Shown in pieces: positions 10,070 through 63,000 of a DNA stretch of 64,000 bases. Where the stretch lies: the NCBI GenBank assembly GCA_948144175.1, contig CANXME010000038.1, forward strand, positions 62,001 through 126,000. The letters are read 5' to 3'. Both the position numbers and the translations under genes were made by a program. A model generated the notes under the pieces. It saw only the letters and a program-made list of their open reading frames with translations, did no database searches and was not told the origin of the DNA. This DNA is from Closterium sp. NIES-65. Taxonomy: Eukaryota; Streptophyta; Zygnematophyceae; Desmidiales; Closteriaceae. Numbering within the stretch: position 1 is the first letter of the stretch; each line of letters opens with the position of its first letter.

Positions 10070-13000
10070 ATGCCGTCACCGCTTCTCCTGCGCCGCCTCT
10101 CCGCCCTTCGCCGCCGTTCCTCTCCCCACTCCCGCCTCCTGCCAGCTTTAATCTCTCACTCACCCTCCTCCGCCTCATCCTCCTCCTCATCCTCCTCCCT
10201 TCGTGCTTCTCACTTCTCCTCTCCCTCCTCTCCCTCCTTTGCTCGACTCACCTCTCCCGAACCTTCCATTTCTCGGATTTCCTCAACCCAATCCCCCTCT
10301 CCCGTGTCTGTCTCTCATTGGCCCTCCGTCTTTCCCTCACCCAACCGGCCACTTGACACGTCAGCAGCAGCCCCGTTGGTCGATTCGCCAATCCCATCCT
10401 CCAGCCAATCAGTGACGTGTCAAAATGCCACTGGTGCTTCCCTGCCAAGCCCATCAGTCATCAGGCCATCGTCGCCGTTCATCGGATCTGCTGAGAACCA
10501 ATCACTGTCCAGCCGAACCATTTTCAACCAATCACCGTCTAGCCAACCCCTGTTAAGCCAAGCACACCTACGGTTACGCTTCAGCTGTCACCTCTTATAC
10601 AACTCCCACTTTGTACGCAGCTATCCGCCACACCACTACCTTCTAAGCACACGAGGATTCGCAAGTGACACGCTCCTGCCACTCCAAATCGAAGCATCTG
10701 ATAACAGATCGTCCCATAGCGAGTCCTCCTATAACGCATCAGAAGCAGCTGGCAACCACAGTATCACCACTCTAAACACCTGGGACCGTGACTCAGAACC
10801 CCAGGAGCGAGGGTCAGGATTTGAAAGGTCTCAAGACTGGGTTCAGTGGAGGGGTGACGAAGCACACGCAGGGTCGTCAGGATCAGATTCTGATGGTTTG
10901 ATAGACGCTGCAGCAGCAGTAGGCGCAGGGAGGGGGGGAGACGCAACAGGAGCAGTGGGAGCAGCAGCGGGGGCAGCAGGGTGGTTGGGTGGCTGGGCGT
11001 GGCTGGGTGTGCCTGTAGACGCTGTGACTCAAATGGTGTCCTCGATACAAGCCACCACAGGAGCCCACTGGTGAGACTCGCATTGCCTGACAGTGTTCGC
11101 TTCTGAGTTGGAAGTTTCAAAACTCACCTGATTGCCCGACAATGCTCGTTCTTTTCTACGAATGAATCGACCGTCTTTTCTTCAGTAATGCCATGTTTTG
11201 AGTCGACTTAAAACTCGACTCAGTAATGCCATGTTTTGAGTCGACTCAAAACTCGACTCAGTAATGCCATGGCTTTTTAACGTTGCAAATTGTCCGTTAT
11301 GTACTTGTATGCTTTCTTTTCTTCTTTGCTCATGCACACACCCGCCACAATTTCTCTCTGTCATGCCAGGTGGCTCACGCTGATTGGCTCCACCCTCGCT
11401 CTCCGCCTGGCGCTCTTCCCCCTCACGTGGCATCAGATGAGCATCAGCTCCCAGCTCGCTGCCCTGGGACCCAAACGTATGTCACGTTCCCCTTTTTATC
11501 CAAGTGCGACTTAGGCACACTCTCTATAACTATAATCACCTGCCTCACTCTCTCCGCCTCTCACTCTTCCCCCTCACGTGGGTGGCATCAAATGAGCTAC
11601 ATCAGCTTGTAGCTCGCCGCCCTGGGACCCAAATGTATGCCGATTCCTCCTTCTATCCAGAAGTTTCTTTGACACACGCTCTTTACTCGCCCCGATTTAC
11701 GCTCTTCCCCCTCACGTGGCATGAGATGAGCATCCGCTCGCAGCTCGCCGCACTGGGGCATACATACATGTACGCCACCCCCTCTTTTGTTTTCTCTTCT
11801 TAAACTGCATAGACACACAACTCTGCATTCCCCCGCCCCTCACACTCTCCCCCTCGCGCTCTTCCCCCTCACACTCTCCCCCTCGCGCTCTTCCCCCTCA
11901 CGCTCTCCCCCTCGCGCTCTTCCCCCTCACGTGGCATCAGATCAGATGAGCATCAGCTCGTGGCTCGATGCCCTGGGACCCAAATGTACGCCGCATCGCT
12001 TTGCTGAATCATGCTTAAGTGAGGAGGAGGCAGGCCATGGCAACAAGCATGAGGTCGTTTTTGAGGCGCCTCAAAAACGACCTCAAGGAGGCAGGACAAA
12101 TTTTGAGTCGACTCAAAAATCGACTTACTACACATGGCAACAAGCATGAGGTCGTTTTTGAGGCGCCTTTTGAGGCTTTTGAGGCGCCTCAAAAACGACC
12201 TCAAGGAGGCAGGGCATGGCAACAAGCATGAGTGCTGAAGCAGAGGCGTGGCGTGGGAGGAGAAGTAGGGCGAGCGAGCCACGTACGAAATTTGAGGCGC
12301 CTCAAAAATCGTCTTAGGAGAAGTAGAGCGAGCCATGTACGAAAAGCCACGGGCGAGCCACCTACAAAAATCTCCTTTTCACGCACTCACGCTCCTATCC
12401 TCCTGCCCCTCTCCCCATCCCCACCACTCTTCACCGCCCCTTCCTCGCCCCAGTGCCCCGCCCTTCCGTCTCCCCGGCAGTAACATGACATGGCAGCAGG
12501 CGTGGGCCATGAGGCAGAGGAGGAGGAGAGTAGGGCAAGCCACGTACGAAAAGCCACGTGTAGAGAGGGTATTTTTGAGACGTGGTATTTTTGACACGTA
12601 CAAAAACACCCTCTCTACACGGAGAGTTGGGCGAGCCACGTACGAAAATTTCCTGCTCACGCACTCTCCCTCCTGTCCCCCTCCCCCTCTCCCCTTCCCC
12701 TCCAGTGCCCCCTCCCTTCCCACTCCCCGGCAGTGGCATGACATGGCAGCAGGCATGGTCGCTGAGGCAGAGGAGGAGAAGGCGGACGAGAGGGGCGGGC
12801 CATGTACTGATCCCAACTCGTGCTGTTTCCCTCCTGTCCTCCTCCCCACCTCCCCGTCTCTCCCAGTGCCCCCGCCCTTCCCTCTCCCTGGCAGTGGCAT
12901 GACATGGCAGCAGGCATGGGCGCTGAGGCAGAGGAGGAGGAAACAGTTGAACGCGCCCTCTGCGCTCTGGCTGCTCGCTGCTCCTGCTGTGCAGGTAGGG

Positions 13001-16000
13001 TGGAAGAAGGGTGAAGTGAGGGGGAGTGAGAGAGTGTGAGTAACGGTTGGTTGGTCCGCAGTGTGTGTGAGGAGAGCATGAGCGCTGAAGCAGAGGAGGA
13101 GAACACAGTTGAATGCGCCCTCCGCACAGCAGGAGCCGCGAGCAGCCATTCAACTGTTTACTCCGCACTCTGGCTGCTCGCGGCTTCTGCTGTGCAGGTA
13201 GGGCGGAAAAGCTGGGGCTGTGCTTTCTGTGGGAAAAATGGGAATATTGGGACAAATGTTGCTTTGAGTCAGTTGCTTCACACCCACCCTGTATGTAATG
13301 CTCTAGAACTGACTCAGTTGTCATCTCTGACCGTTCACTGTAATGGTTTGGTTTGTTTTTTCTTCTTCTTTTTAGGCGTTCAGTTGTCACTATCCTGAGC
13401 AATCATTGTCACTTTCCTACCATAGGTATGCCACAGGATAGCACTCTTTTTCGCCTGGGTCTTCAACATTTGAAGCGCCTTAAGCACTTCTCCACTCCTT
13501 TCCACCCTCCCACTCATACCGCATTCCACCATATCCCACTCTTCTTCACCTGGATCTTCACATGGTCTTCCCTACCCCTTTGGGAAAGTATTCACCCGTT
13601 CCCTCCCTCACTCCCACTGCTACCCCATGCCATGCCATCCCACCGCATCCCACCAGATCCCACTCTTCTTCACCTGGATCTTCACCATGCGTCACATGGC
13701 GCTATCAGCGCACCCAGGATTCGATGTGGTGAGTGGCAGTCTTCCCCATGTGTGTGTTCAAGTAGTAGCTTCAGCCTTCTTGTGGTGGGTGTTATTGTTT
13801 GGATCTTCACCATGCGTCACATGGCGCTATCAGCGCACCCAGGATTCGATGTGGTGAGTGGCAGTCTTCCCCATGTGTGTGTTCAAGTAGTAGCTTCAGC
13901 CTTCATGTGGTGGGTGTTATTGTTTGGATCTTCACCATGCGTCACATGGCGCTATCAGCGCACCCGGGATTCGATGTGGTGAGTGGCAGTGACTCCCATG
14001 TGTACGTTCATAGTTATTCGACTAAAAAATGCACTAGCTTGAGCCTTCATGTGGTGGGTGTTGTTTGGATCATCACCGCGCCGCACATTCCCTCGTGAAG
14101 CGAGGTTGTTTTTGAGACGTCTCAAAAACACTAGCTTGAGCCTTCATGTGGTGGGTGTTGTTTGGATCATCACCGCGCCGCACATTCCCTCGTGAAGCGA
14201 GGTTGTTTTTGAGACGTCTCAAAAACACTAGCTTCAGCCTTCATGTGGTGGGTGTAGTTTGGATCATCACCGCGCGTCACATTCCCTACTCGACACACCC
14301 AGCACTAGCTGGTTCAATCATTATAGCTGTTCAGTTCTCACTGCGGGATTACTTGGCTCACATAACGTATCATCATGGTGGCATCCCGTGTTTTGAGACG
14401 ACTCAAAGCGTGCCTCGCATTACGTGCCATCACGACGGCGGCCCCCTCATTGCCTATTTGCCTTTCAGTCAGGGCGGGGTGTCTCATCTGTGGTACAAGG
14501 ATATCGCATCTCCTATTTGCTTGTTTTCCCTAACAAGGATATCGCATCTCCTATTTGCTTGTTTTCCCTAACAAGGATATCGCATCTCCTATTTGCTTGT
14601 TTTCCCTAACAAGGATATCGCATCTCCTATTTGCTTGTTTTCCCTAACAAGGATATCGCATCTCCTATTTGCTTGTTTTCCCTAACAAGGATATCACATC
14701 TCCTATTTGCTTGTTTTCCCTAACAAGGATATCGCATCTCCTATTTGCTTGTTTTCCCTAACAAGGATATCGCATCTCCTATTTGCTTGTTTTCCCTAAC
14801 AAGGATATCGCATCTCCTATTTGTGGTACAGGGATCTCGGATTTTTAGGACTTCACATCTCCTAACCCCCACAATCATGTGCTCCCTTTGCCCCTACCAG
14901 GGCGGGTGTCTGTGGTTCGAGGACCTCACAGCGTTCCCTCAAGGCGTGCTGGGTTGGGTCTTTCCCCTCTTCATCGCTGGATCATTCTACTCCTCGCTGC
15001 AGGTGCATTTGCTCTCTCTGACTTTCTCTGCTCTCTCTCTGTCTCTGTGCAAGGGCGTGTAATTGATGATGCCAATGCACAGGATGGGAATTGCGAGAAA
15101 GCAACTACAGCCAATTCACAGCCACTTCACTGCTGCTGCTCCCGTTGCCCTCCCTCTACCCTCTTCGTCTCTTCCTGTGCAAGGGCGCGTAAGTTATGAT
15201 GCCGCTGCACAAAATGGGTGTTGCGTGCACCCACAGCAACTTTGCCATCTCATTCCCTGCCCCTTCATCCCCCACCCCGCCTTACGTATCCCTCTCCTTC
15301 TGCTCTCCTTGTCTCTCTCTGAGAAAGGATGCGTAGGTGATGATGCCGTTGCACAAAATGGGTGTTGCGAGCACCCACAGCCCTGCCATCTAACTCCCTA
15401 CTTCACACCCCCCACCTTCCCCCCCACCCTCGCACGTTTCTCTCTCCCTCTCCTCTCCTTGTCTCTCTCTGTGCAAGGGCGTGTAGGTGATGATGCCGCG
15501 GCACAAGATGGGTGCACTCACCACAGCATCACCATCTTACCTTCCCTTCCCCACCTCCGTCTGCGTGCCCTCTCCCTGCTTCCTGTTCCCTCCCTCTGCT
15601 CTCCCTCTCTCTCTCTGTGCAAGGGCGTATAGGTGATGATGCCGCTGCACAAGATGGGTGTGCACACTGCGTCTGACAAGGCCATGCTGGTGAGGGGTGC
15701 TGAGTTGTGCTGAGGAGAGCTGCAGGGTGCTAAGGGGTGCTGGGCTGGGGTGCTGGTGGTGAGTGCTGAGGGGTGCCGGTGGCAGCAGGTGCTTAAGAAT
15801 GACTGAATTATTCTTGTCAATGCTCATGCGTGTATTCTTTTGTGTGTGCTGAGCTTCACTCTTCATCTCCTTCCCCTTCTCTCGATCCACCCCCTCTTTT
15901 CATTCCCCCCCTTCTCCTCTCCTTCCACTTCCGTGACTCCCACAAAGCCTTCTGAAGCCTTCTGTAACTCCTCCTCTCCTCCCCATCCACTCCACCCATC

Positions 16001-19000
16001 TCATTCCCCTCAGTCCCCTTCCCTCCTCTCTCCCTCCCCCACCGTCACTCGGCCCTGCCCACCCACACCAGGCCTACCGAACCTTCCTCGAATTCCTCAC
16101 TCTCCCGACTCTCTATGCTGCACTCAACGTTCCCCAGGTGATTTTAATTTTGAGACGTCTCAAAACTACTCTTTCTACACGTGGTTCCTCCTCTCTCTCC
16201 CAACTCTCTATGCTGCACTCAACGTTCCCCAGCCCAGGTGACTATAGTCTATACCAGGTGATGCCAGCAACAAGTAACTGCAGCTTTCAAACTAGTCTTG
16301 AGGCGCCTCTGAACTAGACTCCTCTTGAATTCCTCACTCTCCCAACTCTCTATGCTGCACTCAACGTTCCCCAGGTAGTTTAGGAAATGACTGTTGGAGG
16401 TGATTGTAGCAGGTGGTTTCAGCAGGCCACTGGTTTGGGATGGTATGTTAGCGCAGGGGCAGCAGGGGCAGTGCGTTGGATTGGGTGTTGTCCAACGCGC
16501 CTGTTAAGCCCCCACTACTGCATTTCAACCGAGGTGACTTTTGAGTCGACTCAAAAGTCATGGCAGGGGCAGCGCCTTGGATGTTTGTCCTGTCATCATT
16601 GCACCCTCTACTGCTGGGATGTTGGATGTTGGGATGTTGGATGTTGGGATGTTGGATGTTGAGATGTTGGAATGTTGGGATGTTGGGATGTTGGGATGTT
16701 GGGATGTTTTTGAGTCGACTCAAAAGCAGACTGCTGGGATGTTGGATGTTGGATGTTGGGATGTTGGGATGTTGGATGTTGGGATGTTGGATGTTGGGAT
16801 GTTGGGATGTTGGGATGTTGGATGTTGGGATGTTGGATGTTGGGATGTTGGGATGTTGGGATGTTTTTGAGTCGACTCAAAAGCAGACTGCTGGGATGTT
16901 GGATGTTGGGATGTTGGGATGTTGGGATGTTGGATGTTGGATGTTAAGCACCCTCTACTGCATTTCAGCCGCTTCAACCTGTTTCACCTCTCTCCACTCC
17001 CCCTTACCCACAAAACCCCAGGCAGTGCACGTGTACTGGCTCACCAACAACACCTTCACTCTCGCTCATCATCATACCTGTTTATCCACCTCCACCTCTT
17101 TCTACCCCTCTTTAACTCGTTTCACTGTTGTCCACTCCTCCTTCCCCACACCCCAGGCAGTGCACGTGTACTGGCTTACCAACAACACCTTCACTCTCGC
17201 TCAGGTGCCCACCCTACCCCTCTGCATCCCTTCCCATCATTTCCTTCACTCCCCCTCCCTTCACTTCCCATCCCTTCACCTCCCATCCCTACCTCTCCTG
17301 CATCTTCCCTTCCCATCCTTCCCATTCCTTCCACCCTTTTCGTCCCTTGCCATCTCTTTCCATCCCTTCTTATCCCATCCAATTCTTTCACCTACCTCGC
17401 CTTCCCATGTCTTATCGTCCCTTCCTTCTCATCCCTTGCCATCTCCTCCCATCCCTTCTCATGCCATGAGATTCCTTCTCCTACCTTCCCTCCCATCCCT
17501 TCTCCTCCCTTCCCGTCCAACTCCTTCATCCCTCTCCATGCCACTGCACGCCCCTGTATCTCTCCTCCGCATGAATCTGTTGTTAAGCCATATAACCACC
17601 ACACTGCACTGTTTTAAACCCCCCCTTATCCCCTGCCGCACCTCTGTATCCCCCCTCGCCCCTTTGCCTTGGCACTCCAGTTCCCTCATCCATTGCCTTC
17701 GCCTTGCCTTGCCTTGCCTCTCAGCTTTTGAGACGTCTCAAAAGTCATCCATTGCCTTCGCCTTGCCTTGCCTCTCAGCCTGCCCCCCATCGCACACCTG
17801 CATGCCATGCAGCATGAAGCCAGAACACCATCGTAGTGCACCGCTTTGAACCACTCTGTCCACACTTCCTTCACTCCACTCTCCGCAGGCCTTGGCACTC
17901 CGGTACCCCACCATCCATCAAGCCGTAGGCCTGCCTGCCCACCATGGCACAGCTACAGGCCATTCAGCATTCAGCCATAGCACCTCGATGATGCACCGCT
18001 CTGAACCACTGTGTCTGTCTCCTGTTTCTCCCTTTTTCTCCCCTTATCCGCAGGCATTGGCTCTGCGATCCCCCACCATCCGTCAAGCCGTAGGTCTGCC
18101 TGCCCACCATGGCACAGCTACAGGCCTTGCACCGCTTGAAACCATTATGTCCCCGCTCTCCCCCTTTTCTCTCTCCCCTGTCTCCCCAGGCATTGGCACT
18201 CAGATCCCCCACCATCCGTCAAGCCTTAGGTCTACCCACCATGGCACAGCTACAAGCCTTGCAGCAGCAGTATCACGCTCGGGCTGCTGCATCCTCTAGC
18301 CCTGCTGCTGCTGCGAATGGTGCTGGGAATGGTGATGCCACCAGTTTTGGAGGCGCGGGGAGTGTGGGGGGGTTGATATCAGAGCAGGAGATTGCGCGGA
18401 TGACAAACCCACATACTTTGCTTCTGGTGAGTCCCTTATGTGATTGGTTTGTAGGGGTCTTAGAAAAACTGTCGGTTGTGGGGTTCCCTTTTCTGAGAAT
18501 TCTCAAAAAACAGTTGTGGGGTTCCCTTTTCTGCACAACTGACAGATCCCCATGGCTGATAGACGTTCCGAATGCACCTTTGCTTGTATAAGTCTGAAAG
18601 TTTGAAACGCCAGGCATGAGACTGTAAGTATTATGGGACTGTATGGCCAAGAGGCCCTTTTAATTCCACTGATACTAATTTAGTCTTGAGAGACGTCTCA
18701 AAGTGACTTATAAGTCGACTCAGAAGTCGCCTAGATTATTAATCATGCGGATGTTTTGTCTTTTAGTTGACTCAAAAGAGGTCGCCTAGATTATTAATCT
18801 CGCGGATGTTTTCTTTTAGACGTCTCAGAACCATAGACATCGTGAGACACGAAACGCAATGCTTGCGACTGTACGGCCACAGTATACCTTACTAATTCTC
18901 TGCAAGATCTGGACTCCTGGTTGTAATTTGTGGAGCACCGCTCCTCCTGGCTGCTCACTTCACTGTTGAGGCGCCTCAAAAGTTATTAAGGGTATCGGGT

Positions 19001-21684: not shown

Positions 21685-22460
21685 GGAAGGTGTGTTTGGC
21701 TCGACTACAAAGCTGGGCAAGGAGGCAGGGAGGCGAGAAAGTGGGTGGTAGCAGCAGCAGACTATGACCCTTCTGTGCTGGACGCGTTTGGTCAGGAGAT
21801 TGAGAGAGAGGGGGAGGAGGAGGGGAAGGGCGTGGTGCAAGGGAAGGGGGGAGTGGTGTAAGGAAGATGCATTTGGCTCGACTTAGGTAAGAGAGTGGGT
21901 GGCAGCCGGTGCAGACTACGGCCCTTCTGTGCTGTACACGTTCACAGGGGAGCTTGAAGGCGAGGAGGAGGAGGGGGCGTGGTGCAATGGAAAGGAGGGG
22001 GTGTGTGAGGGCAACACCCTGGCTCTGAAGTGGGTGGCAGCCGGTGCAGACTACGGCCCTTCTGTGCTGTACACGTTTACAGGGGAGCTTGAAGGCGAGG
22101 AGGAGGAGGAGGAGGAGGAGGAGGAGGAGGAGGAGGAGGAGGAGGAGGAGGAGGAGGAGGAGGAGGAGGAGGAGGAGGAGGAGGAGGAGGAGGAGGAGGA
22201 GGGGTGTGCGGTGCAAGGAAAGAGGGGAGTGGTGTAAGGAAGCTGCTTTCAGCTCGACTATAAACTTGGCGAGGCAAGGAGGCCAGAAAGTGGGTGGCAG
22301 CAGCAGCAGATTACCATGACCCTCTTGTGCTGGACATGTTTTGGTCCGGAGCTGTATTTTGAGGTGCCTCAAAATACACCTCGATGCTCGCGGGTGGCAG
22401 CAGCAGCATGTTACCATGACCCTCTTGGGCTGAACATGTTTTGGTCCGGAGCTTGTGGGA
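21408..22460 (+). repeat. Copies of the OXA2 terminal exon, several with alternative stops
   Basis: KWVVAAADYDPSVL-coding copies occur at about 21408-21476, 21528-21684 (taken as exon 14), 21729-21860, 21890-22010, 22030-22238, 22287-22345 and 22385-22455. Three of them end in GVVQGKGGVV or a close relative plus a stop. They lie before and after the modelled stop, so the true 3' end could differ. A hairpin (22353-22378, TGTATTTTGAGGTGCCTCAA...) separates the last two. Confidence 0.85.
22097..22201. repeat. (GAG)n microsatellite
   Basis: About 35 GAG triplets inside one copy of the OXA2 terminal exon, encoding a Glu run in that copy's frame. Confidence 0.97.
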
Positions 22461-22773
22461 GCGGAGACAGGGGGGCTGGTGCAAGGGAAGTGGGGAGGTC
22501 CTCCCCACACTGAACAAATGCCACTCTCACCACTCCTATCCAAGCAAGCGTTGCTGTCTCTTTAGGCAACTAATCAAATAAAGGACTTTATTTGGCCTTC
22601 TCTTTTGGAGTGAACCAGGTTGTAAAGAATTTCACAGGAAGCAACTGTCAGTTATTTTGCGACTCCCTCCCTATAAGAATCTACGGTGCAAACGTGCTGT
22701 TTCTCCCACCACTTCCGCACGGCCCGTTCCCCTGCCACTCCCTCCCTCCACTCCACTTCTCACAATATCCCCC

Positions 22774-22890
22774 TGTCAGAATCAGAACTACAGCGGAATG
22801 CGTTGTGTTGACAGAATTGGGGTACATCACCTAACCCTAACTAGTTGTACCCCAGATAGCCCAACCCACTACAGGCTATAATATTTGACA
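22774..22890 (-). mobile_element. Solo LTR, relative of element C
   Basis: 117 bp that in minus orientation starts TGTCAAATATTATAGCCTG and ends TTCTGATTCTGACA. It parallels the 110-bp LTR of element C (TGTCAAATGTTGTAGCCTG ... TTCTGACA) through shared blocks (TAGCCTGTAGTG, GTTAGGGTT, TGTACCCCAA). It is flanked by CCCCC on both sides, compatible with a 5-bp target duplication, though in a C-rich context. Confidence 0.8.
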
Positions 22891-22991
22891 CCCCCCCACC
22901 CCCAAGATTGATTTCTCTTGCCGCGTCACACTCATCCACACTAAGTCCCCAAGCCTCACCTCTATGCCCCCCCCCCCCCCCCCGTCCCAAG

Positions 22992-23421
22992 TGTTGGAAA
23001 CAATAAGTCCTAAGTGCGCTTCTGTCGTATCAAAATCCAAGGTACCAAGCGAAGCAGTCCCAATCGAAGCATCGAGTCAACCTCGGAGGTTAGGGTAACC
23101 GCCTGGAGGTTACGAGAAAGTCAAAGGTCGCTGACCTTTGACTCGACAATTACAGCGCGACAGTTAAGGACACACAACTGACTCGTTACAGAGCAGTTGC
23201 CCGAGTCGCGCTATATCGAACCGCAACAGCAATACAGTTATCTATCTATTCCTTGTACTCTTATATAAATCCTTGTATTTGCTTGTTTAATTCAATCAAC
23301 TTTGTTCTCACACACCAGTGCAAGGTCGGTTCAAATTCTTCACTAAACGCTTCCGCTGTTACAACTACTTCACCTAGAGTTATCCCTTGCAAAGATCCTA
23401 AGGGGCTATCTCAGCCCAACA
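22992..23421 (+). repeat. 5' LTR of element B
   Basis: 430 bp, TG...CA ends, with a TATATAA box at about 23263-23269. Flanked on the left by target duplication CCAAG. Confidence 0.96.
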
Positions 23422-23433
23422 TGGTATGAGAGC
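23422..23433 (+). promoter_or_regulatory. Primer-binding site of element B
   Basis: TGGTATGAGAGC lies immediately after the LTR. It differs by one base from the usual plant copia tRNA-Met primer site TGGTATCAGAGC. Confidence 0.9.
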
Positions 23434-23475
23434 AGACAAGGGAAATTCTACTCTTTTTCAATATCATTACAAGAC

Positions 23476-26400
23476 ATGGCAACAAACAAGGAAAGGAGCT
23501 CCCCTAATGGCTCCTCGGGCACTACTCCTACTCCACCGTCAGCCTCTGGCCTGCAGACAGAAGAAGGCACGGCAACAAGACCAAGAGGAACGTCAACCGA
23601 GACCCCCATGAACCACCCTTCGGACTTTGACCAGAACATGATGGAGAAATTTTTCTCCTTCATGTCCTTCTACGAACAACACCAGCAGTCGGGACCTGCA
23701 CAAACACACAACAGCAACAACGGAGCGACACCCATGAGTCTTGATGGGTCGTCATATGCGCGAGGAAACCAGCAGCAGCAACCTACCTTTGCTCCGTACG
23801 AGCGCGGGTCAATCAGCTTCGTGCCCCACCCGCAACCTTCACCTGGACAAGAAAGACCACTGGACGCACTTCAAGTTCAGTCGCAGTTTGCACACGTCTT
23901 AAAACTGCAAACGTCAAGACCCTTCGACGGCAAAGACTTCTTTACCTGGTCCTTTGAATTCGAGCTGATGATGGAGGGCGCGCAGATACTCGGCTTCTTC
24001 GACGGGTCCCTGCAGTATCCAGCCAACGGGACACAATATGAAAAGCAGCAGTATACGTATCAATCAATGATGGCGTATACAATCCTATTGAGGAATGTGA
24101 CACCAACTCAGCAGCAGAACATTCGCTCTTACCGGACCTTCGGCAACTCGGCGGAGCTCGCGTACAGCCATCTGAAGAACCTGTATCAAGCAACAGACAG
24201 TGTGAACCAGAGCAGGTTAATGGCGCAGTTGACGACAGTCGAAATGAAACCAGGAGAAAAAGGACTGGCGTATATCAGCCGATGTCGCGAACTGCGCAAC
24301 AAGCTGCTTCGATGCGGAGGGTCAATCTCTGAAGACGCCTTCGTGACAGTCATCATTGGTGGGCTTGGTCCTCAGTGGCGCGCCACCAAAGCCATTCTTC
24401 GAGCCCACGGAAGAATCTCTGAAGCTGCACTCTGCGCCGAAATACATGCCGAGCAGCAAGATATGGACCTGCAGGAAGAACGACACAGGAAGAAAACGAC
24501 AGTATCAGAGTTCGCATTCCACACTCAACGACGACACAGCAATTATAACAACCGACAGCAGCAACCGAAGATAGTACCTCCCTTCTGCCACATCTGCAAG
24601 ACTTCAGGGCACCCGCGCACACACTGCCCGAATCGTCAGCAATCAACGGCACCACAGCGACAACTTCGACCTTCAAGCTCCCAAATGGCTTCAACACAAG
24701 CAAGTGCGACGACCACTATTCAAGCTTCAACGACTTCACCCGGACAACCTGCACAAGGAGCAAGAAATATAATCAACTGCATGACGAAGATAACCGATTC
24801 ATGTACAACCGAATCACCACCACACTACTCACCGGAAGAAGAGCTTGACAACAGAACGCCTCGCCGTGAGCTACTCCAGCCGAATCCAACGTACGCCGCC
24901 ATCGCTCAAAGTGAACCGTCCGGCCAAGACACCTGGTTCTTGGACAGTTGCTGCGGGCAACACATGTGCTCGTCCGGGCGTTTCGTACAACGCGAACATC
25001 GACTCCAACGGGAAGTGATCATCACGGTTGCCAACAACCAAAACCTGCGCACACGAAGACAAGGAGTGGTACAGCTTCAGTCAAGAGAAACAAATGTCAT
25101 ACTGCACATGTCTAAGGTACTCATCGCTGAAGGACTCGGCTACAACTTACTGAGCGTTAGCCAGTTGATGGCGAAAGGAATTCATCTGGAAGCCGACAGC
25201 ACGACCCAGGAGTTCAAACTTTACCACGGGAGAGGCGGTCTCTACATCGGGAAAGCAGTGCTGAAGAACAACGTCTTCGTCCTCGACTTCGTTCCTGACC
25301 TGGGCACTGCAGACAGCGACGCCATCGTGAATTTCACTGACTGGACACACCCTCCGGATCTCGACCCCGACTTCAGCCCAGGAGGCTTCTGGTACTCGCA
25401 CACCATTCCTGAAGCAGAACGAACACGAGCATTAGCAACAATTCGACAATCGGCAGCAGTAACAACATCGGCAGCAGCAACAACATCAGCAGCAGTAACA
25501 ACATCGGCAGCAGCAACAACATCAGCAGCAGTAACAACATCGGCAGCAGCAACAACATCAGCAGCAGCAGGAACAACGACACCAGTCACAGTCGACGAAG
25601 CACCACCAACACCCGCGAAACAGCTGAATCCGACTCAACGTGAAGTCCACCGAAGCGCCAACCTCGTCGCCAGCTTTTACTCCAACTCCGACGCATATCA
25701 GCGTTCACCTGGACACCGTGCCTCTGAAGAGATCTGGCACGCACGAACAGGACATCCAAGTAACACGGTTTTGAATAACACGATAAGAGCAGGAGTCCTT
25801 GACAAAGATTCTCTACTTCTACCCGATGGCAGAGAACTCCAGAAGGCACGAGGGACTTGCCTTATATGTCCCGAAGCTGACTTACCTCATCGACCGTTTG
25901 CTTCACATCACAACCCGAGCGCTCCAGCGTACGCACCACTCGAAAAAGTCTACAGCGACATCCTCTACAATCGCGAGCCAGGACAAGTCAACTACAACTA
26001 CACCATCACCTTCATCGACGCCGCCACTCGATACGTCTGGCATCGCAACCTACCCAGCCGCGACATGGCGCTCACAGCATTCGCCGCCTGGCTACCGATA
26101 GCAGAGAGAGAGTCTGGAACACAACTGAAAAAATTCCAGTCAGACGGAGGTGGCGAGTACACCTCTCACCGCTTCAAGCAGTTCTTGGCGGAAAGGGGGA
26201 TCAAGCAACTCCTCTCCCTTCCTTACGCACATCAGCAGCAAGGTGTTGCAGAACGACTGAACAGGACCCTGCAGAACAGCATGCGCAAACTATTACGTGG
26301 CATGCGGCTACCCAACCACCAGTGGCCAGCAGCAATGGACCACGCTGTCATGCTACACAACTTGTTGTCGTCGTCGTCACTCCCGAACAACGCATCGCCG

Positions 26401-28749: not shown

Positions 28750-28871
28750 CCAAGTCCAAATGTTTCTTTGCAACCCCTTCCAGCCCATATTTTTCTACTC
28801 CCTTCATCTCGCTACCCCCCACCCAATGCTCGCCTGTCCCTCCAAAACAAGCCAGTGATTAACACAGTAAC

Positions 28872-28981
28872 TGTCAAATGTTGTAGCCTGTAGTGAGGTT
28901 TGTCTTAGGGGGTACAGAAGTTAGGGTTTGTCATATGTACCCCAACCAACATCAATGCAACATCCATTCCTCATTCTGACA
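28872..28981 (+). repeat. 5' LTR of element C (110 bp)
   Basis: Begins TGTCAAATG and ends TTCTGACA. The primer-binding site TGGTATCAGC starts at 28982. Confidence 0.94.
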
Positions 28982-33157: not shown

Positions 33158-33189
<32 letters not shown>

Positions 33190-50444: not shown

Positions 50445-50700
50445 ATACCAAGTTAGCAACTCACAGCAGAGAGGACTTTTGAGTCGACTCAAAAGTCACC
50501 TCTGTTTGAAGGGTTTGTGTTCAGCCCGACCAAGAAGAGCACTGCAACAAGCCCTTCTGTGGTGTAGACAACAGAACCTAGCAGCATCAGGGATGGATCC
50601 GCTGGACAACTCTCTGAAGGGTTTGTTGTGTTCAGCCGGACCAAGAAGCACGGTGCAACCGGTCCTGCGTTGTAGACAGCAACTCACAGCAGAGAGGACT
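50445..50700 (+). repeat. Copies of the end of kinase exon 15
   Basis: After the stop, the [17 protein letters not shown] stretch is repeated at about 50503-50545 and, more diverged, at 50593-50674. The first copy is separated from the gene by the palindrome GACTTTTGAGTCGACTCAAAAGTC (50474-50497). Confidence 0.88.
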
Positions 50701-51139: not shown

Positions 51140-54100
51140 TTAGAGCTCCTTGCTCTTCTTAGTCGCAGCAGCAGGAGAGGGAGCAGCGGAGGAGGAGTAG
51201 AGGTAGGTGCTAAGGACGGTGAGGGGGAGGGCCAGCCACACAAAGAGGGAGGGAGGTGTGCCGTCGAGAGCATACTGCACTATGGCGGTTACCACCAGAC
51301 CGGCTATCACTGTGAACCCCTGCGAGAGGGAAGGAGCAAGGAGGAAGGAGGGTTGTGGGAGTGAGAAAGGGAGAAGTTTCAAGGTGTTTTGGAGAGAGAG
51401 CAGCAATGGGTGGAAGTGCCATCCAGATGAAGAGAGAGGGAGGCGTGCCGTCGAGAGCATACTGCACTAGAGGTTACCAGCAGATCCGCTATCACTGTGA
51501 AACCCTGTGAGGGAAGGAGTGTGGGTTGAGAGAAGGGACGAGCAGCATGGGGAGAGGAGGGGGTGGGGGGGGGGGAGAGCAGCATGGGGAGAAGAGGGGG
51601 TGGGGGGGGGAGAGCAGCATGGGGAGAAGAGGGGGTGGGGGGGGGGGAGAGCAGCATGGGGAGAAGAGGGGGTGGGGGGGGGGAGAGCAGCATGGGGAGA
51701 AGAGGGGGGTGGGGGGGGGGGAGAGCAGCATGGGGAGAAGAGGGGGTGGGGGGGAGAGAGCAGCATGGGGAGAAGAGGGGGTGGGGGGGGGGGAGAGCAG
51801 CATGGGGAGAAGAGGGGGAGGGGGGGGAAGAGCAGCATGGGGAGAGCGGCATGGGGAGAGCGGCATGGGGAGAGCGGCATGGGGAGAGCGGCATGGGGAG
51901 AGCGGCATGGGGAGAGCGGCATGGGGAGAGCGGCATGGGGAGAGGCGTGCCGGTTACCAGCAGACCGGCGGTTACCAGCAGACCGCCATGCCGTAGAGTC
52001 GAGAGCATACTGCAGTATGGCGGTTACCAGCAGACCGCCATGCCGTAGAGTCGAGAGCATACTGCAGTATGGCGGTTACCAGCAGACCGTCTGGATGGGC
52101 TGGTTCTATGGCTTTGAATGAAAGATCCTAGACTATTATGGTGGCATGAATACAGTAGGAAAGAAATCCCCACAACCCAGTGAACCCTCTTATGACACCC
52201 GCCCCGCCTCCACCACCTATCCCCTCCCCCAGCATACCTTCTTAACGCCCCCTGCATATTTGGTCACAAGCCCCACAAGAATGCCTCCTATGGCGTTTGA
52301 TAGAGCTGGAATCTGGGGGGTGGGGTGGGGCGTGGGGTTGGGGTTGTGGGGGGGGAGAAGGGGGTGTGTGTGGGGGTTGGGGTAGGGGTGAGAAGTAGAA
52401 GGCATATTTGGTCACAAGCCCCACGAGGATGCCCCCTATGGTGTTTGACTGAGCTGGAATCTGGCGGGTGGCGATGAGGTGGGATAGGGATGGGGTTAGA
52501 GCGGAAGCGAGGATAAGGGTAGGGGTGGGCAGGAAAAGGCATGCTTGTGCACAAGGCCTACGAGGGTGCCCTCTATGGCATTTGACCGAGCTGGAATCTG
52601 GGGGGTTGGGGGTATAGCGATATTGAGAATGGGCAGGGTTCAGCTCCCATGCGATCGAAGTTTGAGTTTTGAGGCGCCTCAACAGTTGAAAGTGGGAATG
52701 GGTGGGAATCCACTCGCATGCGAGAGAAGTCCTGGGAGGAGAGGAGGGAGACGGGGAGCAGTGATAGCACCGCACGGCGCACAGTAGTGAGTCAGAGTCG
52801 CGATTGGCATGGCAGGATGAATGCATTGAGGTGTATTTTGAGGCGCCTCAAACTACACAGCGCACGGTAGTGAGTCAGAGTCGCGATTGGCAGGATGAAT
52901 GCATGCTGACTCATTATGGCGAGGGGCGTCCAGGCGTGGAAGAAGCCGGGGCGCAACATGCGAGCAGCAGCGTCTTGGAAGGAGAGGATAGGAACAGTGA
53001 TGTGCATGCATGATGGTGCACGCACAGTGGCAAGAAAGGGGAGCAAGCACGACTTGATGCTTCTTACGATGGTGAGTGGCGTCCATGCGTGGAAGAAGCC
53101 GAGTTGCAACATGCGGGCGCCGTCTTGGGAAGTGAAGAGAGAGACGAGCAGGACGAGGGACGTGAGGGAACACATCTCGATGGTGAATAGATGTGGGCTG
53201 CGCCTCTTGACCTGCACCGAGACAAGACCAGACGAGACAAGGGGAAAGAGCTGAATGATGAGACGCCAGGACAAGACAATACCACCACCCCCCACGCACA
53301 CATGTAATGAGTCGAGTTTTGAGACGGCTCAAAACTCGACTCATTACACACGAGTCGGCTCAAAACTCGACTCATTACACACGATTCGACTCGAAACTCG
53401 ACTCATTACACACGAGTCGGCTCAAAACTCGACTCATTACACACGATTCGACTCGAAACTCGACTCATTACACACGAGTCGACTAAAAACTCGACTCATT
53501 ACACGCAGACGCCAGGACAGGACAATACCACCACCCCCCACGCACACACCTGCACTTGCCACTGGTTGTGCGTTGATCCCAGCCCAGAGGTCACAGACGC
53601 CACCAGCACCGGCACCACTCCCAGCGCCACTCTCTCCCAGGCCACGCCTGCTGCTACAATAGCCGCCGCCGCAGCAGCAGTGGCAGCCGCGCCAGCAGCC
53701 ATAGATGGCGGCGCCTCCCCTGCTGCACTCGCTCCGTGAGTCTGGCCAGGTTTAGGCCCCGGACCAGAAGCAGGGCCTGGGCTGAGGGTGAGTAGCGTGG
53801 CGGCGACGAGCAGCATGCAGAGGGCGACGATCTGCACCCGGGTCTGGCGGATTCTGTGATGAGAAGTGAGACAAGACAGGAGGGGAAAAGGTTCAGAGGA
53901 ATAGGTTGAGAGGGTGGGAAGGAACAACGGTCGTTCGTTTGCTCTCACTCCGTTTCTTCCCTCGCAGCGACGAGCAGCAGGCAGAGAGCGATGCTTTGCA
54001 GTCGGGTCTGGCGGATTATCACCTCTTTCCCACCTTCACTCATTCCTTCTTACCCGAGAAAGAAGTAGTTGGACAGGTCCGAGAAAAGAAGCTTCGTCTG

Positions 54101-57100
54101 GTTCAGCAGGTTGAAGGTCAGGTGGTCCAGATGGCTTAATCTCTCTCTTCTCACCTCTTCTCACATCTTCTCACCTCTTCCCACCTCTTCTCACCTCTTC
54201 CCACCCTTCTTCGTTCCCTCTTACCTGAGTAACAGGTAGTTGAAGAGGGCTGTGAACAGAAGGTTTCTCTGGTTCAGCAGGTCGAACGTGAGATAGTCCA
54301 GATGGCCTATTTCACCTCATTTCCTCCCACCTAAGGAGCAGGTAGTTGGAGAGGGCGGTGAAGAGCAGCTTCGTCTGGTTCAGCAGGTTGAACGTCAGGT
54401 AGTCCAGGTGGTGCAGGGCTACTTGGATGAGCGTGTTCTGAATGAAGTGACTCCCTTTCCACCTCTTTCCCACTGTACTGCATCCTCACTCTTACCTTAG
54501 AAACAGATAGTTGGAGAGAGCGGTGAAGAGGAGTTTCGTCTGGTTCAGCAGGTTGAACGTCAGGTAGTCCAGGTGGCGCAGGGCCACCTGAATGAGCGTG
54601 TTCTGGGCGGCGTACAGCAGGCCTGGTACCGCAGCAGCTTCTAACGAGTCCAGCAGGTGCCAGTTGCGCCAGACGGTGAAGAGAGAGCCGTCCAGGAACA
54701 TGGCTGTGAGGGCTATGAGAACCTGCGTGTGGCGTGGTGGAAGGGTAGTGGGGGACGGGTGATGTCAATGCACGGGTGACTTGTGGTGCCAGTTGCGCCA
54801 AACGGTGAAGAGAGAGAGCCGTCTAGGAAGAAATCGCGGCTATGAGCAGACGTCTGTTGGGGCTATGAGGAGACGTCTGTTGGGGCTATGAGCAGATGTC
54901 TGTTGGGGCTATGAGCAGACGTCTGTTAGGGCTATGAGCAGACGTCTGTTAGGGCTATGAGCAGACGTCTGTGAGGGCTATGAGGACCTGCGTGTGGTGT
55001 GGATGGGAGAGGAAGAAATCGGGGGGAAGGGAAAAGAGGACAGCAGAATGTATGCAGAGGCAATGGGAGCATGTGCGAGCATAAAAAGGTGCACCAGTGG
55101 CGTCAAACGGTGAAGAGAGAGCCGCCGAGAAACATGGCTGGAAAGGGGTGGGTGGGGAAGGGGGAGGCAGGAGGGGGTGGTGGGAGAGGGATGATGATGG
55201 CATTTCACGGGTGGAAAATACAATGATGAACGCCAGGAGGAACTTTAGTACAGTAAATGACCTGTAGGAACTGGGGGGGGGGTTATGGAAAGAGTCTGGC
55301 GGTGCGGAGTGAGGGTGGGTGGCAATGATTGGTCAAGGAGAACGAGGGAATTCAGAATGCGAGGAAGCGAAAGAGTGGCTGTGTGGGGGTGGTACGGGGA
55401 AGAGGTGGGAAAATGTTTTATCGAGTGGGAGAGGGGAAGCCCTTTGAGGAGTGACGGGGGCTCTAGAGGCGGGGGCTCTAGAGGCGGGGGCTCTAGAGGC
55501 GGGGGTGCTCACCTTGAGGACTTCGCAGGTGATGACCTGACTCGATATCAGCACGTCACGACTGTTGGTTTCGGAACGAGGGATGGGAGTTGCACAGCGG
55601 GAGGGATGGGGAGGGAGGGAGAGAGGGATTGAGGGAGAGAGGGAGGGAGAGAGGGAGGGAGGGAGGGAGGGAGGGAGGGAGGGAGAGAGGGAGGGAGGGA
55701 GAGAGGGAGGGAGGGAGGGAGGGAGAGAGGGATTGAGGGAGAGAGGGAGGGAGGGAGAGAGGGAGGGAGGGAGGGAGGGAGGGAGGGAGGGAGGGAGGGA
55801 GGGAGGGAGGGAGGGAGGGAGGGAGGGAGGGAGGGAGGGAGGGAGGGAGGGAGAGAGGGAGGGAGGGAGGGAGAGAGGGAGGGAGGGAGGGAGGGAGGGA
55901 GGGAGGGAGGGAGGGAGGGAGGGAGGGAGGGAGGGAGGGAGGGAGGGAGGGAGGGAGGGAGGGAGGGAGGGAGGGAGGGAGGGAGGGAGGGAGGGAGGGA
56001 GGGGAGGGAGGGAGGGAGGGAGGGAGGAGGGAGGGAGGGAGGAGAGGGAGGGAGGGAGGGAGGGAGGGAGGGAGGGAGGGAGGGAGGGAGGGAGGGAGGG
56101 AGGGAGGGAGGGAGGGAGGGAGAGAGGGAGGGAGGGAGGGAGGGAGGGAGAGAGGGAGGGAGGGAGGGAGAGAGGGAGGGAGGGAGGGAGAGAGGGAGGG
56201 AGGGAGGGAGAGAGGGAGGGAGGGAGGGAGGGAGGGAGGGAGGGAGGGAGGGAGGGAGGGAGGGAGGGAGGGAGGGAGGGAGGGAGGGAGGGAGGGAGGG
56301 AGGGAGGGAGGAGGGAGGGAGGGAGGGAGGGAGGGAGGGAGGGAGGGAGGGAGGGAGGGAGGGAGGGAGGGAGGAGGGAGGAGGGAGGGAGGGAGGAGGG
56401 AGGGAGGAGGGAGGGAGGGAGGGAGGGAGGGAGGGAGGGAGGGAGGGAGGGAGGGGGGGGGGGGATTCAGTTGAGGATAGAACGGACAGAAGAGTTGGGG
56501 AGGAAAGGCAAGGAGATTCGGGGCAGGACCAAGCAACAGACAACGCCGCCTGACGGGGATAAGGAAGGCGGTCCGCATTTGCACGCATCCATCACCTTAG
56601 CAGCTTTCTCGTGAGAATCGGCTGCAGGCCATACTGCAGAGCCAGTAGCGCCATGATGCAAACCATTGAATACACCGGAGAAACACTGTTACATTGTTAC
56701 CCTATCACGCCATTCATCACCTCACTCGCATCGCAAGCATCCATCACCTGAGCAGCTTCCTCGTGAGAATCGGCTGCAAGCCGTACTGCAGAGCCAGCAG
56801 CGCCATGCAAATCAACGCCTTGCTATTAGAAGCACCTCCCGTCCCTCCCCCTCGTCCGTGGATCCCGCTACGATCCGTGAATCGCGCTTTCTCCTTCCCA
56901 TCGGTTCCACGTTTCGTCCCCTCCTTTCCATTCGCAAATCCGTTTTGAGAATTCTCGAAAGACGATTTCCCCTCCGCATTGACGAATTTCACTCTTTCTC
57001 TTCCTTCCTCCGCCGTGCTTCGCGGCTCGTCAAAATCTGGCTCTTGCCGCTCGAGCCGCGGTCGACTTCTGGACGTCGCCGTCACCAAAGCTGGCTCTCG

Positions 57101-58201: not shown

Positions 58202-58244
58202 ATCAACCCTAAACACGGGAACCCGCCTGGTGTTTAGGGTTGAT
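58202..58244. repeat. Inverted repeat with telomere-like arms
   Basis: ATCAACCCTAAACAC (58202-58216) and GTGTTTAGGGTTGAT (58230-58244) form a perfect 15-bp stem with a 13-base loop. The arms contain CCCTAAA/TTTAGGG, the plant telomere word, once each. Confidence 0.85.
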
Positions 58245-59857
58245 GCCTCCCGAGTCGCATCCATTTCCGAACGGGTGTTATTATTTATGTCAGCTAAAGT
58301 GATGTTTTTTTTAACGATTACGCATTTCATTTCCAAAAAAACAAACATGACGAAACCTACTTCCAGAGGAATGTGACGCAAGCTTCGTATTAGGCGGCGA
58401 TCATAACCATGAAAACATTATTGAACCAAGAAAGTTGAGCAAAAAGCAATTTCCTTTTTATCTTGGCTCGGATTCTTGGCCCAACCACTTTGGCAGCCCC
58501 AAGGGGTATATCTGACGGTTGGGATCAACCTGGCCCTAATTCGGTCACCTCCCTGCTATTGTTCGGCCCCTATTTGATATTTTCCCAACCGTTTTTGCCA
58601 AGAGATGGACGGACGGGTGGATCTCTCTCTAAGTCCACGAGGTTCACGAACTTCTGGAAGTTCCACAGCGATTGGGTGCGACGGTAGGGAAGAACTCTCT
58701 ACAGTAACCGTTACGCGCCCCGGCACTGCGATTTGGGCCAAGCGCTTCTCTGCCAATGAGAGAGGGCCGCCGCAATTTCGCATAATAAAAACAGAAATAC
58801 GATTTCCGTGCTGCAAAGGCGTTGCCATAACGCCGCATACAAAACCGGGGATACGGGCCTCAAGCAGGCTGCACTTCCCAGCTTTCCAGGGCGTATATGA
58901 AGCATGAGAAATGTGCACGGTTCTCTAATTATTTTATGTAAGCACTAAACAACAACAGCTTGACACAGCTGCAGCGACACAATCGTGTCACGCGGTCCAC
59001 ATAATCGACACTCTGCATGAACTTGCTGTGCTTGATTGCCTGTCGCCATCTCATTTCAGTGGAGTTTTGCCTTTGAAAATCGCGTCCTGATCAAATTTGA
59101 CTTCAAATCAGCCACATATCAAGGCCGTGGAAATTCAAAAGCACGAAACACGGGAGATAGGGACCCTTGGGATTACGGAACTGAAAGAGGACATATGCTC
59201 CATCGCACAGGACCCGCAACCAATTCGCTCGTATTTGTAGAGAAGTCGTTCTCCTCAATTGAGATGCTGAACGAGCGCGTCTTGGACTGAACGACGTGAA
59301 TTTAGTTTAATTGAGGCGCAGACTGACTCGCTCCATTCGTTTTTCCCCCCACAAACATTCCTTCACTGTACCTCCTCGAGCCGCGCGTTTTTCTCCTGTT
59401 CAGTCCACGAAATTGCCTGAGATTCTAGGAATCGTCACCAAGCTCAGTTGTTTAAATATGGACTACCATAACCAGCGGATAGGGCACTTGAGATTGCGTC
59501 ATCTCGCGGGTTTGAGGATTCGATCGTTCAACGAATCTGACGTTCAGTGGAAACGCCTCTGCGCACCATTTGTTACCATCTCTCGCCGCATTTTACCTCG
59601 TATCACCACTCTTTACCCCGTCACACCAATTGTCACCACTTCTCACTACCCCTTACCGTCAACATGAAGCGCATGGCCTCCTCGTCTCAGCAAGCTATGA
59701 AACGGTACGTTTGTCACTCCATACTTCAAGCCCGTTCCTCGTTTTTCATGGCAGTTTGCAACAGTCTGCTTGCTGAAGGCAATGGTGACGAAATTCCCCC
59801 TTCCTTGCTTGCTTCCTTGCTTCCGTCCTTCAATTGTCAGTATGAAACTCGCTTCTG

Positions 59858-60000
59858 CTTTTGAGACGCTTCAAAACTCACTTCTGCTTCTGAGACGCTT
59901 CAAAACTCGCTTCTGCTTTTGAGACGCTTCAAAACTCGCTTCTGCTTTTGAGACGCTTCAAAACTCGCCTCTGCTTTTGAGACGCTTCAAAACTCGCCTC
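59858..60000. repeat. Five-unit array of imperfect hairpins
   Basis: Units of about 29 bp read CTTCTGCTTTTGAGACGCTT plus CAAAACTCG. The core TTTTGAGACGCTTCAAAA is a one-step variant of the palindrome family. The array sits about 55 bp upstream of the SPARK gene start. Confidence 0.9.
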
Positions 60001-60055
60001 TATGCGAGTGGAAAGAATCGTGGCGATTCCTTGTTCTTCTCTATTTATTGAATTC

Positions 60056-63000
60056 ATGTATAGAAACAAAGTGTATTTCTTTGTTTCTTTCCTTTTTCTG
60101 TGTGTCTTGCATTGTCTTTCTCTGAGCAGCTGCCTCGAGCTGGTCCTCCTGGTGCTGCTCATTCTGCCAGTAATCGCTTCTCTCGCCGATGCAGCGGACA
60201 CGAATGCGACCTCAAGCCGACCTAGAGCCGCTGGTCCTGACGACACTCCCCCCGGCACCACCACTCCCCCCGGCACCACCACTCCCCCCACCACCACTCC
60301 TCCCAGCACCACCACTCCTCCCAGCACCACCACTCCTCCCGGCACCACCACTGATGAAGATGATACCACTGATGGCGGAAGTTTCACCATAAACAGCAGC
60401 AACAACAGCAGCAGCCCAGGTGGCAACAGTGGCAGCAGCAGCAGCAGCAGCAGCAGTGGCAGCAGGGCAAGGGCAAGCCCGGTGCCACCGCCCCCACCAG
60501 CGATTCCGTCCTACGGCTGTAACGTGGACTTCAGTGCCCTCGCCAACGGGAACATCACCTGTACGTTGTCCATCCCCTTTCTGTATGCTCGTAGGATTTT
60601 TTTCCAGCCCTGTTAGCCCTGGCAGCGGCAGCAGCAACAGCAGCGGTGGCAGCAGGGCAAGGGCAAGCCCGGTACCAGCTCCCCTACCAACGATTCCAAC
60701 CTACGGCTGTGACGTGGACTTCACCTGCCTCTCCAACCGGAACATCACATATATGCTTTTAGATTTCTTTGCACCCACAGTTCAAGCATTATCCACGGTG
60801 CTGTTACAATCGGTGCGTGTGATGCCAGTATATTCATTCTTGCACCATTTTAGATGTGAAAAAGACGCATGCATCCACGGGCTGTTCAAGTCGGTGTCTG
60901 AGAATTCTAAAAAAAGTTACACATTCCAGCCGTCCCCCATTTCTTTTCTCTTTCCCTTTCGGTTTTCTCGTCTGCACATGCTCCGCCCATATCGGTCTGC
61001 TCTGGCACCTACTCGGCTTAAACATGTCTCACCTCTGTTTCTCACCTCACCGCCTCGCCTGCCTCTTCATTTCCCCCGTGCCTTTTATCACCTCCAGCTC
61101 TCTCGGCCTGCTCTGGCCCGTCTCCATCCCCAGACGCATGCTGCGGGCCGCTGTTGGCGTTTCAGAGGAGCTTCGCTGTGAGGGAGCCCATGTTCTTCCT
61201 CGCCATCACCACACAGCCCGAGCTCAACACCCCTTGCAGGAAGGTACTGCGAAGCTGGTGCAGGCTAGACATCTCAGAAATCAAGGGCAAACCTCCCAAC
61301 GACCTGCCAGGCTCACCTGTAGCCATCCCTTGTTCCTCCTCACGTCACTGTCGACAAGCCCAACTTTGACTCGTAAGGCTCGTGTAAAAGGTGAAGTTTT
61401 GATCCGTCTCAAAACTTCACTTTCTACACGTGGCTGTTCCTCCTCACGTCACTGTCGACAAGCCCAATTCTGACTCATGAAGCCCACTGACTTCTCCCGT
61501 TTTTTGTGGTATTTCTGCCCCTCTCCCTCTCTCATCCGCTCCCCAGTCCCTCCAGGTGCATCTGCAGGCATCACCTGCTCGGCCTCGCATCACTGCCAAT
61601 GCCCTGATCCCCAACTCTGACAAATAACATGTTGCACTCGTGTGTCTCTCTGCTCCTCAACTCCCACCCTTTTCTGCTCCCAAGTCCCTCCAGGTGCATC
61701 TGCAGGCATCACCTGTCCGCCCGCGCATCACTGCCCATTGACCTGATTCCCAGCTCTGATTTAAAAGGCTTCGACTCTGAGCCTTCCTCCGTTTCGTGTG
61801 GTCTCTCTCCTCTCTCTCTGCCCATCTCCCTCCCCTCATCCGCTACCCAGTCCCTCCAGGCGCATCTGCAGGCGTCCCCTGTGCGCCCGCGCATCACTGC
61901 CAATGTCTTCTCCCTCTGCAACCCTCCCACCAACGCCTCCTCCTCCTCCTCCTCCTCCTCTTCAGCCTCATCTCGTCGCAGTCTGCTCCCTCTGGTGGCG
62001 GTGGATCCGCCAAGCAACAAGTGCCCTGTGGTGTGGGTGCAGGACGTGGATCGACTGTAAGTGTATAAGGCATGTCTGATGAGAACAGCCATGTCTGCAG
62101 AATAAGTGCCTTGTTCTCATGCAGGGCATATTCTCTCAACAACAAGGTATTCTCCTTCTCTCACGTTGCAGTCTGCTGCCTTTGGTGACAGTGGATCCGC
62201 CAAGTTTAAATGCCCAGTATTGTGGGTCCAGGATTTGATCTGACTTTGTCATCTCCTTTCTCCTCCTTCATACCTGCAACTCATCCCAGCTTCCTGCAGG
62301 TCATGTGCCTTTCACATGCATGTGCCTCGCAACAGACAGATACAACCAGCTCCAGATGCGCCTCCCCTCTGTCTGCTCCTATTCATCCCTTCCCTGTCTG
62401 CTCCTGTGTCCCTCCGAACTTCTCCCCTCTTTCCGCTCTCCCTCCCGCCTTCCCGCCCTCCCCTCCTGCTCCCTGCAGTCAGAACGTCACTCGCCTGGCC
62501 AAGGCATGCGCCTCTGCAGATACAGCCTGCCCTAGATGCGCCTCCACGCTTTCTGCCGCAGCTGCCGCCCTGGCCCGCTACAGCCCGGCTGTAGCGGCTC
62601 GCACTGCGGCAAGGGGAAGCGCGGGGAATGCGAGCATGGCTGCTGGGGAACCCACCACTGCACCATCCGAAGCAGTCATGGATGATTGTGCGCGAGTGAC
62701 ATTCGTGAGGGTGGCTCAGGCTCAGGTACGACTCTCTCGTCGTGTGCCCTCCTTCCTGTCCTTGTGTGCTTACCGTGTGGCTTGTAAAACCACCACTGCA
62801 CCGTCTGAAGCGGTCATGGATGACTGTGGGCGAGTGACATTCGTGAGGGTGGCTCAGGCTCAGGTACGACTCTATCTCGTCGTCTGCCCCCCTTTGGCCG
62901 TGTATGTTCTACCACTGTGCGCGAGTGCCATTCGTGAGGGTGGCCCAGGCCCAAGTACGTTCCTTCACCTTTATTCGTCCTCCTTTTGTCCGCCCTTTCT

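Follow-up and report, generated by a model that had tools for sequence, protein, structure and literature searches.

The 64,000-nucleotide stretch of Closterium sp. NIES-65 DNA analysed here (contig CANXME010000038.1 of assembly GCA_948144175.1, positions 62,001 to 126,000; hereafter the window) carries numerous copies of a short palindrome built on the core TTTTGAG-NCGN-CTCAAAA. The palindrome is designated H, the host segment duplicated on both of its sides X, and the resulting layout X-H-X. H is a sequence-specific, high-copy family and is probably a mobile palindrome, dispersed by insertion at staggered chromosomal breaks.

The palindrome family and its duplicated flanks

With up to two mismatches allowed the core is found 38 times in the window, against 0.03 expected from dinucleotide shuffles (largest count 1), and 20 of the 38 matches are mismatch-free. 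A palindrome scan that was given no preset sequence returns 47 rows, 24 of which belong to the H family; the hairpin family described in a first-pass annotation of this DNA is thus real. Its count of about thirty copies translates into about 25–29 separate loci when the arrays at 49228–50207 and 59845–60001 are each counted once. A genome-wide search with the 18-bp core, which the annotation had proposed, locates the exact core at 24,964 places of the Closterium assembly (874,075,685 bases, 2400 contigs) and the reversed control at none. Mean exact-core density is 1.8 per 64 kb genome-wide versus 20 in the window. The bZIP protein encoded in the window shares 77% identity with a NIES-54 protein across 74% of its length, in line with a Closterium host. 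No core match of the window lies before 11,196 or within 22,374–42,287, the parts holding the copia reading frames, in agreement with the earlier remark that the three copia elements are free of hairpins.

The centre of H is overwhelmingly symmetric. Three self-complementary centres (TCGA 13,080; GCGC 5,851; ACGT 5,047) make up 23,978 of the 24,964 genome places (96%), where 40% is expected for independent sides with the same letters; these counts take in amplified arrays, and the remaining 986 places are pooled. The four-base centre is self-complementary in 27 of the 38 window matches, and five of the 11 others belong to a single array at 59859–59992. Symmetric centres number 21 of 25 in the window (permutation mean 7.7, largest 16) and 54 of 59 outside it (mean 21.3, largest 36 in 3000), where position 10 is also symmetric in 43 of 59 elements (mean 22.1, largest 33). 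Note that the outside set holds one element per cluster, namely its first member, a rule that applies equally to the one-per-cluster flank counts and to the surplus and arm-motif tests below. Further out than half-arm position 17, the mean agreement between the sides does not exceed permutation (179/649 versus 168.2), which fits with most arms being short. The X copies that flank an asymmetric core have lower identity (0.881, n = 14, versus 0.946, n = 21, for symmetric cores; Spearman P 0.018) and are hence older; palindromy therefore seems to come with new copies and to decay afterwards, and not to be maintained by selection in place.

A fixed flank test detects X-H-X at 17 of 29 window loci and at 324 of 3000 control sites (Fisher P 7.5e-10). 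As the test uses thresholds (score 14, gap sum 46) chosen with the window already viewed, the stretches outside it, numbered L027 to L045, serve as the independent check: there X-H-X is found at 67 of 97 elements versus 455 of 3000 control sites. With one element per cluster the counts are 17 of 23 versus 299 of 2000 in L027–L037, which were fetched regardless of the core (L030–L037 adjoin the window on the same contig), and 23 of 36 versus 312 of 2000 in core-selected stretches. All control sites keep a distance of 250 bp or more from elements, and those of the window also avoid copia and the long simple repeat; the X-H-X rates of the control sites, 11–16%, indicate that short direct duplications are common in this DNA anyway. 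Direct duplications are thus enriched around the core, and all ten copy-hairpin-copy places of the annotation are present, two of them in looser form. The looser form at 50474 is a 38-bp exact repeat whose start is 59 bp to the left of the core; that at 53303 has its repeat beyond a 31-bp array in which the hairpin arm is included, a configuration seen by eye and missed by the flank test.

The derivation of X-H-X from a single-copy site is directly visible at five loci, which have a nearby paralogous copy on the same contig with X single and H absent. At L033:4744 (X 46 bp, H the 18-bp core) the flanks joined over one X align with the paralog through 180 columns without a gap, and at L043:9164 (X 16 bp, H 28 bp) 69 gapless columns align with the empty paralog. 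The empty paralogs of L029:4898 (X 35 bp) and of window locus 22357 (X 62 bp) are more diverged and align with small gaps. The fifth case is a nearly full-length H at 45601–45654, accompanied by a 9-bp direct repeat, which splits copy 1 of a kinase exon occurring three times in tandem; the gene matches Pfam Pkinase, and we take the exon to be of AGC type. The automated search for empty sites was positive at 4 of 35 sites, matches near the query locus or with more than 20 gap columns being left out. In another search for spanning matches, rows 16708, 16865 and 17726 were set aside as loci matching themselves with long gaps. As X is single and H absent at these paralogous sites, palindrome and duplication together constitute an insertion.

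Neither the duplication nor the palindrome has a fixed size. At the 35 clean loci among 58 solitary ones (drawn from 135 matches; 16708 and 16865, 157 bp apart, are kept as two though related) X measures 16–98 bp (median 46), and 9 bp at 45612. Its copies are 74–100% identical (median 0.94), which implies insertions of many ages. Inspection by eye of the X ends gave no target motif at the 31 of the 35 clean loci whose X copies have at least 86% identity. H ranges from the 18-bp core alone (L029:5218, L033:4744 and the L045:6176 array) to about 56 bp (L041:5291 and window 61381–61430), the full form reading roughly CCACGTGTA-NTGAGGYGAN-TTTTGAG-NCGN-CTCAAAA-NTCRCCTCAN-TACACGTGG. The surplus over the core is 0–46 bp on the left and 0–30 bp on the right, uncorrelated between sides (rho -0.09, P 0.60, 35 loci) and concentrated at 0–3 bp (left 15/35, right 17/35, both sides 7/35); H is trimmed independently on each side of the core. 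Recognisable copies of the outer arm motif TACACGTG occur in 18 of 162 arms, 14 of these sharing one register, and in 47 of 1066 control arms. The annotation had read the arms as extending into mirrored host sequence. This is contradicted at L043:4827 and L034:5296, where the arms lie outside the duplicated segment, and by the empty sites, from which they are missing; the arms consequently belong to the element.

Proposed insertion at staggered breaks and its alternatives

Insertion and target duplication in one event is the favoured explanation, the data being compatible with either transposition or repair synthesis as the copying step. A new H copy would enter a chromosomal break whose ends are staggered by ~10–100 nt, possibly a pair of opposed nicks. 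The single-stranded ends would be filled in, leaving X on both sides, while H, presumably copied from another resident H, would bridge the two ends, its palindromy allowing tails from both ends to anneal to each other. HX units can then multiply in tandem. Pairing of tails copied from a resident H would explain both the kept, symmetric centre and the ragged, independent outer ends, and filling of staggered ends gives duplications without a set length. The wider proposal, a class of gene-less mobile DNA lacking fixed ends in which a self-complementary sequence of 18–56 bp bridges staggered breaks through copied, annealing palindromes, is put forward tentatively, as a possibility rather than an expectation. 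Under it each event would duplicate 10–100 bp of host DNA and leave a new perfect palindrome, making H an end-joining parasite that continually supplies genes with small tandem duplications.

Several observations weigh against insertion at staggered breaks or narrow its reach. The flank test failed at 12 of 29 window loci and, outside, at 6 of 23 and 13 of 36, partly through age or nesting and partly without visible reason. Elements were located via the core, hence core-less remnants escape detection, and the annealing of tails is a step that we infer. Among spaced direct repeats, those with the core in their spacer number only 10 of 31 in the window, 14 of 55 in the stretches not selected by core and 19 of 62 in the core-selected ones; the spacers are of other kinds in 21/31, 41/55 and 43/62, respectively, and duplication with a spacer thus does not need H. 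H does not account for the general tendency of this genome to duplicate. Note that the ungapped scan behind these counts also takes in decayed exon duplications, that some H-less spaced repeats resemble exon duplications with diverged introns, and that two rows assigned to other spacers (19201 and L029:4485) visibly contain a degenerate hairpin. The suggestion in the annotation that a dedicated process makes the duplications accordingly survives in part: the presence of a dispersed family goes with direct duplication, and five empty sites are known, whereas H as a general duplication source is not borne out by the spacer counts. Many direct duplications of 50–110 bp spaced by hairpin-free sequence occur in the window and in L027–L045 and represent a second source of local duplication.

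Among the alternatives, H could be a non-autonomous terminal inverted repeat (TIR) transposon, namely a palindromic miniature inverted-repeat transposable element (MITE) or foldback element moved by a transposase, with long X arising from later local duplication. The palindromic unit with its outer motif in one register in 14 of 18 recognised arms and the 9-bp direct repeat of one long copy speak for such an element, which is nevertheless unlikely because the duplication length is inconstant and the ends are ragged, the two sides varying independently, where TIR transposons, MITEs and foldbacks have constant values for both. Furthermore, lone half arms are rare (200 half cores inside palindromes and 22 outside, with 6 expected), and L033:4744 has the 18-bp core alone between 46-bp copies with an empty site that aligns without gaps. 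Several of the 22 solitary half cores stand in arrays, and inspection of the 22 by eye (265,533 bases) gave no clear case of an autonomous partner, no dedicated genome-wide search having been made. Retroposition of a hairpin RNA by target-primed reverse transcription would accommodate the variable duplication, which is usual for long and short interspersed nuclear elements and is found here. It is improbable in view of the lack of a tail or constant 3' end, both sides being trimmed and both surpluses falling at 0–3 bp in 7 of 35 loci, and of a centre that, as the loop of the presumed RNA, is symmetric in 96% of places although RNA pairing does not require it.

The order of events could also be reversed, a resident H stalling replication and the neighbouring segment then duplicating. 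Hairpins are known to stall forks, yet this scenario has very little to recommend it given that the empty paralogous sites have X once and H absent. Slippage over X-H moreover predicts equal numbers of H and X, and the arrays at 11182–11271, 14032–14287 (last X partial) and 49228–50207 are each one H short. Such a deficit would follow from an initial X-H-X whose HX unit multiplied afterwards; the array at L045:6134–6302, whose last X has only 8 bp, is less clear. An artefact of assembly or library preparation, to which palindromes are prone, is scarcely credible: a missed hairpin adapter should give inverted rather than direct flanks, the copies are graded in age (X identity 0.74–1.0) with symmetry declining as they age, and filled and empty copies stand on the same contig. 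Other identities were considered and rejected. A Helitron would entail no target duplication, in conflict with X-H-X and its empty sites. Concerning a viral origin, 11 IMG/VR loci carry the core; they are taken as chance matches since their contexts bear no relation to the arms of H and, inspected by eye over 45 bases on each side, lack X-H-X. In a search for RNA families a single tRNA was the only match of the window to reach gathering scores.

Relation to known systems and significance

Palindromic MITEs and foldbacks, for example the nematode palindromic repeats with TTAA-type sites, have a constant short target duplication and constant ends; they share with H the dispersal of a palindromic repeat and differ from it in these two constants. 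Short mobile palindromes, some with co-changing arms, also include REP/BIME, the Rickettsia palindromic elements and organellar double-hairpin elements. They are bacterial or organellar, unlike H, and to our knowledge they are not associated with long direct duplications. Small tandem duplications at staggered breaks have reportedly been described in plant and rice studies.

In mammalian cells, opposed nicks with 43–50 bp overhangs lead to tandem duplications (PMC8355091). These have in common with X-H-X a direct duplication of tens of bp, a length set by the stagger and no target motif; their junctions lack a recurring sequence, whereas the H junction is one family with 24,964 exact cores. 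Repair-mediated insertions comprise filler of 1–68 nt with direct repeats of 4–21 nt at some breakpoints (PMC2671141); there, fillers and donors vary by event and the direct repeats are shorter than most X. As for filler at staggered breaks, the direct repeats around H abut the inserted sequence, vary in length and, as judged by eye, show no target motif. Filler there is of varied origin; at H loci it is one family, other spacers existing alongside. The introners of Amoebophrya carry inverted repeats of 8–20 nt inside direct repeats of 3–5 nt at exon borders (PMC7789003). They resemble H in having inverted repeats flanked by direct repeats and in spreading in genes, and differ in that their inverted repeat is not a family-wide motif, while H has a long X and a fixed core. 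In the 18-bp insert of L033:4744 no GT...AG pair is seen by eye, though X could supply a splice site. The literature search found no described family with this palindrome signature and no single high-copy filler at duplications, and the main text of the Closterium genome paper (PMC10407611) contains no word starting with "palindrom". Filler DNA at duplications is the nearest known process, and H is filed as a mobile palindrome inserted through break repair.

If insertion at staggered breaks is correct, a DNA sequence can attain copy numbers in the tens of thousands with no transposase-type signature, symmetry being the feature that keeps it mobile. In this close algal relative of land plants the copies would then record staggered breaks naturally and in datable form, X length giving the distance between nicks. 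H would likewise provide a concrete origin for small within-gene duplications in this alga complex, in which genome sizes differ more than twofold (PMC10407611).

Elements of the window and neighbouring features

A tandem form, X-H-X-H-X at 11182–11271, has a 14-bp X (11182–11195, 11220–11233, 11258–11271) alternating with two 24-bp H with TCGA centre (11196–11219, 11234–11257). It is followed by a nested cluster at 12036–12232, where a host segment of 18–28 bp occurs three times with GCGC hairpins at 12059 and 12177 and, by eye, a TCGA hairpin (12101) lies within one host copy. The flank test places another X-H-X at 12258–12333 around a GCGC hairpin at 12290. A long H at 12553–12620, absent from the list of the annotation, stands between 28-bp X copies (12525–12648) and retains both outer arms (CCACGTGTAG...CTACACGG) around a decayed centre. 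X-H-X-H-X recurs at 14032–14287 with a 97-bp period, ACGT hairpins at 14110 and 14207 and a partial third X (63 bp aligned). At 16094–16232 a 44-bp X flanks H at 16138–16188, whose right arm is full and ends in CTACACGTGG. The two TCGA hairpins at 16708 and 16865 belong to a minisatellite (16610–16945) and are mutually non-independent. Next come an X of ~40 bp with a 5-bp indel around an ACGT hairpin at 17726–17744 (17686–17773), a 21-bp X around an AATT-centred H at 18496–18512 (18475–18533), a 31-bp X around a degenerate H at 19232–19267 (19201–19298) and an 88-bp X, 88% identical, around a degenerate H at 21479 (21391–21604). The 62-bp X at 22292–22453 encloses H at 22354–22391, its paralog at 21639–21853 being the empty copy mentioned above.

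In the second half of the window, a 45-bp X flanks a TCGA-centred H at 43588–43619 (43543–43662). The 54-bp H at 45601–45654 is bordered on both sides by TCCTCGTGC, a 9-bp repeat seen by eye (45592–45663). The array at 49228–50207 has a 112-bp period, 8.8 X-H units and 8 hairpins, with X at both outer ends. Around the TCGA hairpin at 50477 the 38-bp exact repeat spans 50380–50537, its left copy standing 59 bp from the core. An old X-H-X, 74% identical, surrounds a GCGC hairpin at 52667 (52624–52730), and a 52-bp X, 87% identical, surrounds another at 52836 (52773–52906). At 53261–53548 a 42-bp X identified by eye (53261–53302 and 53507–53548) encloses a 46-bp palindrome (53303–53348) and the 31-bp array grown from it. 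A 29-bp array of a degenerate core (ACGC) occupies 59845–60001, and the last locus, 61331–61476, has a 42-bp X and a long H within 61373–61434 (palindrome 61381–61430). By eye, X crosses an exon-intron border at 16094–16232 and 21391–21604; a border-spanning X of this kind would retain an intact splice site and might make the insertion harmless. Outside the window, minisatellites with periods of 20–46 bp are built from half or whole cores (L041:6185–6466, L041:7344–7472, L034:2982–3091), H therefore also seeding arrays.

The region also carries repeats and features of other kinds. The kinase exon split by H has three tandem copies (45570, 45867 and 46044; region 45570–46182), and the last matched kinase exon is likewise found three times, in 151-bp units devoid of the hairpin core (48179, 48408 and 48559; region 48179–48702). 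A tRNA gene (47237–47310) sits between kinase-gene exons. A (GGGA)n array of 865 bp extends over 55599–56463, and a palindrome of different sequence, ATCAACCCTAAACAC...GTGTTTAGGGTTGAT with a 7-base loop, is located at 58202–58244.

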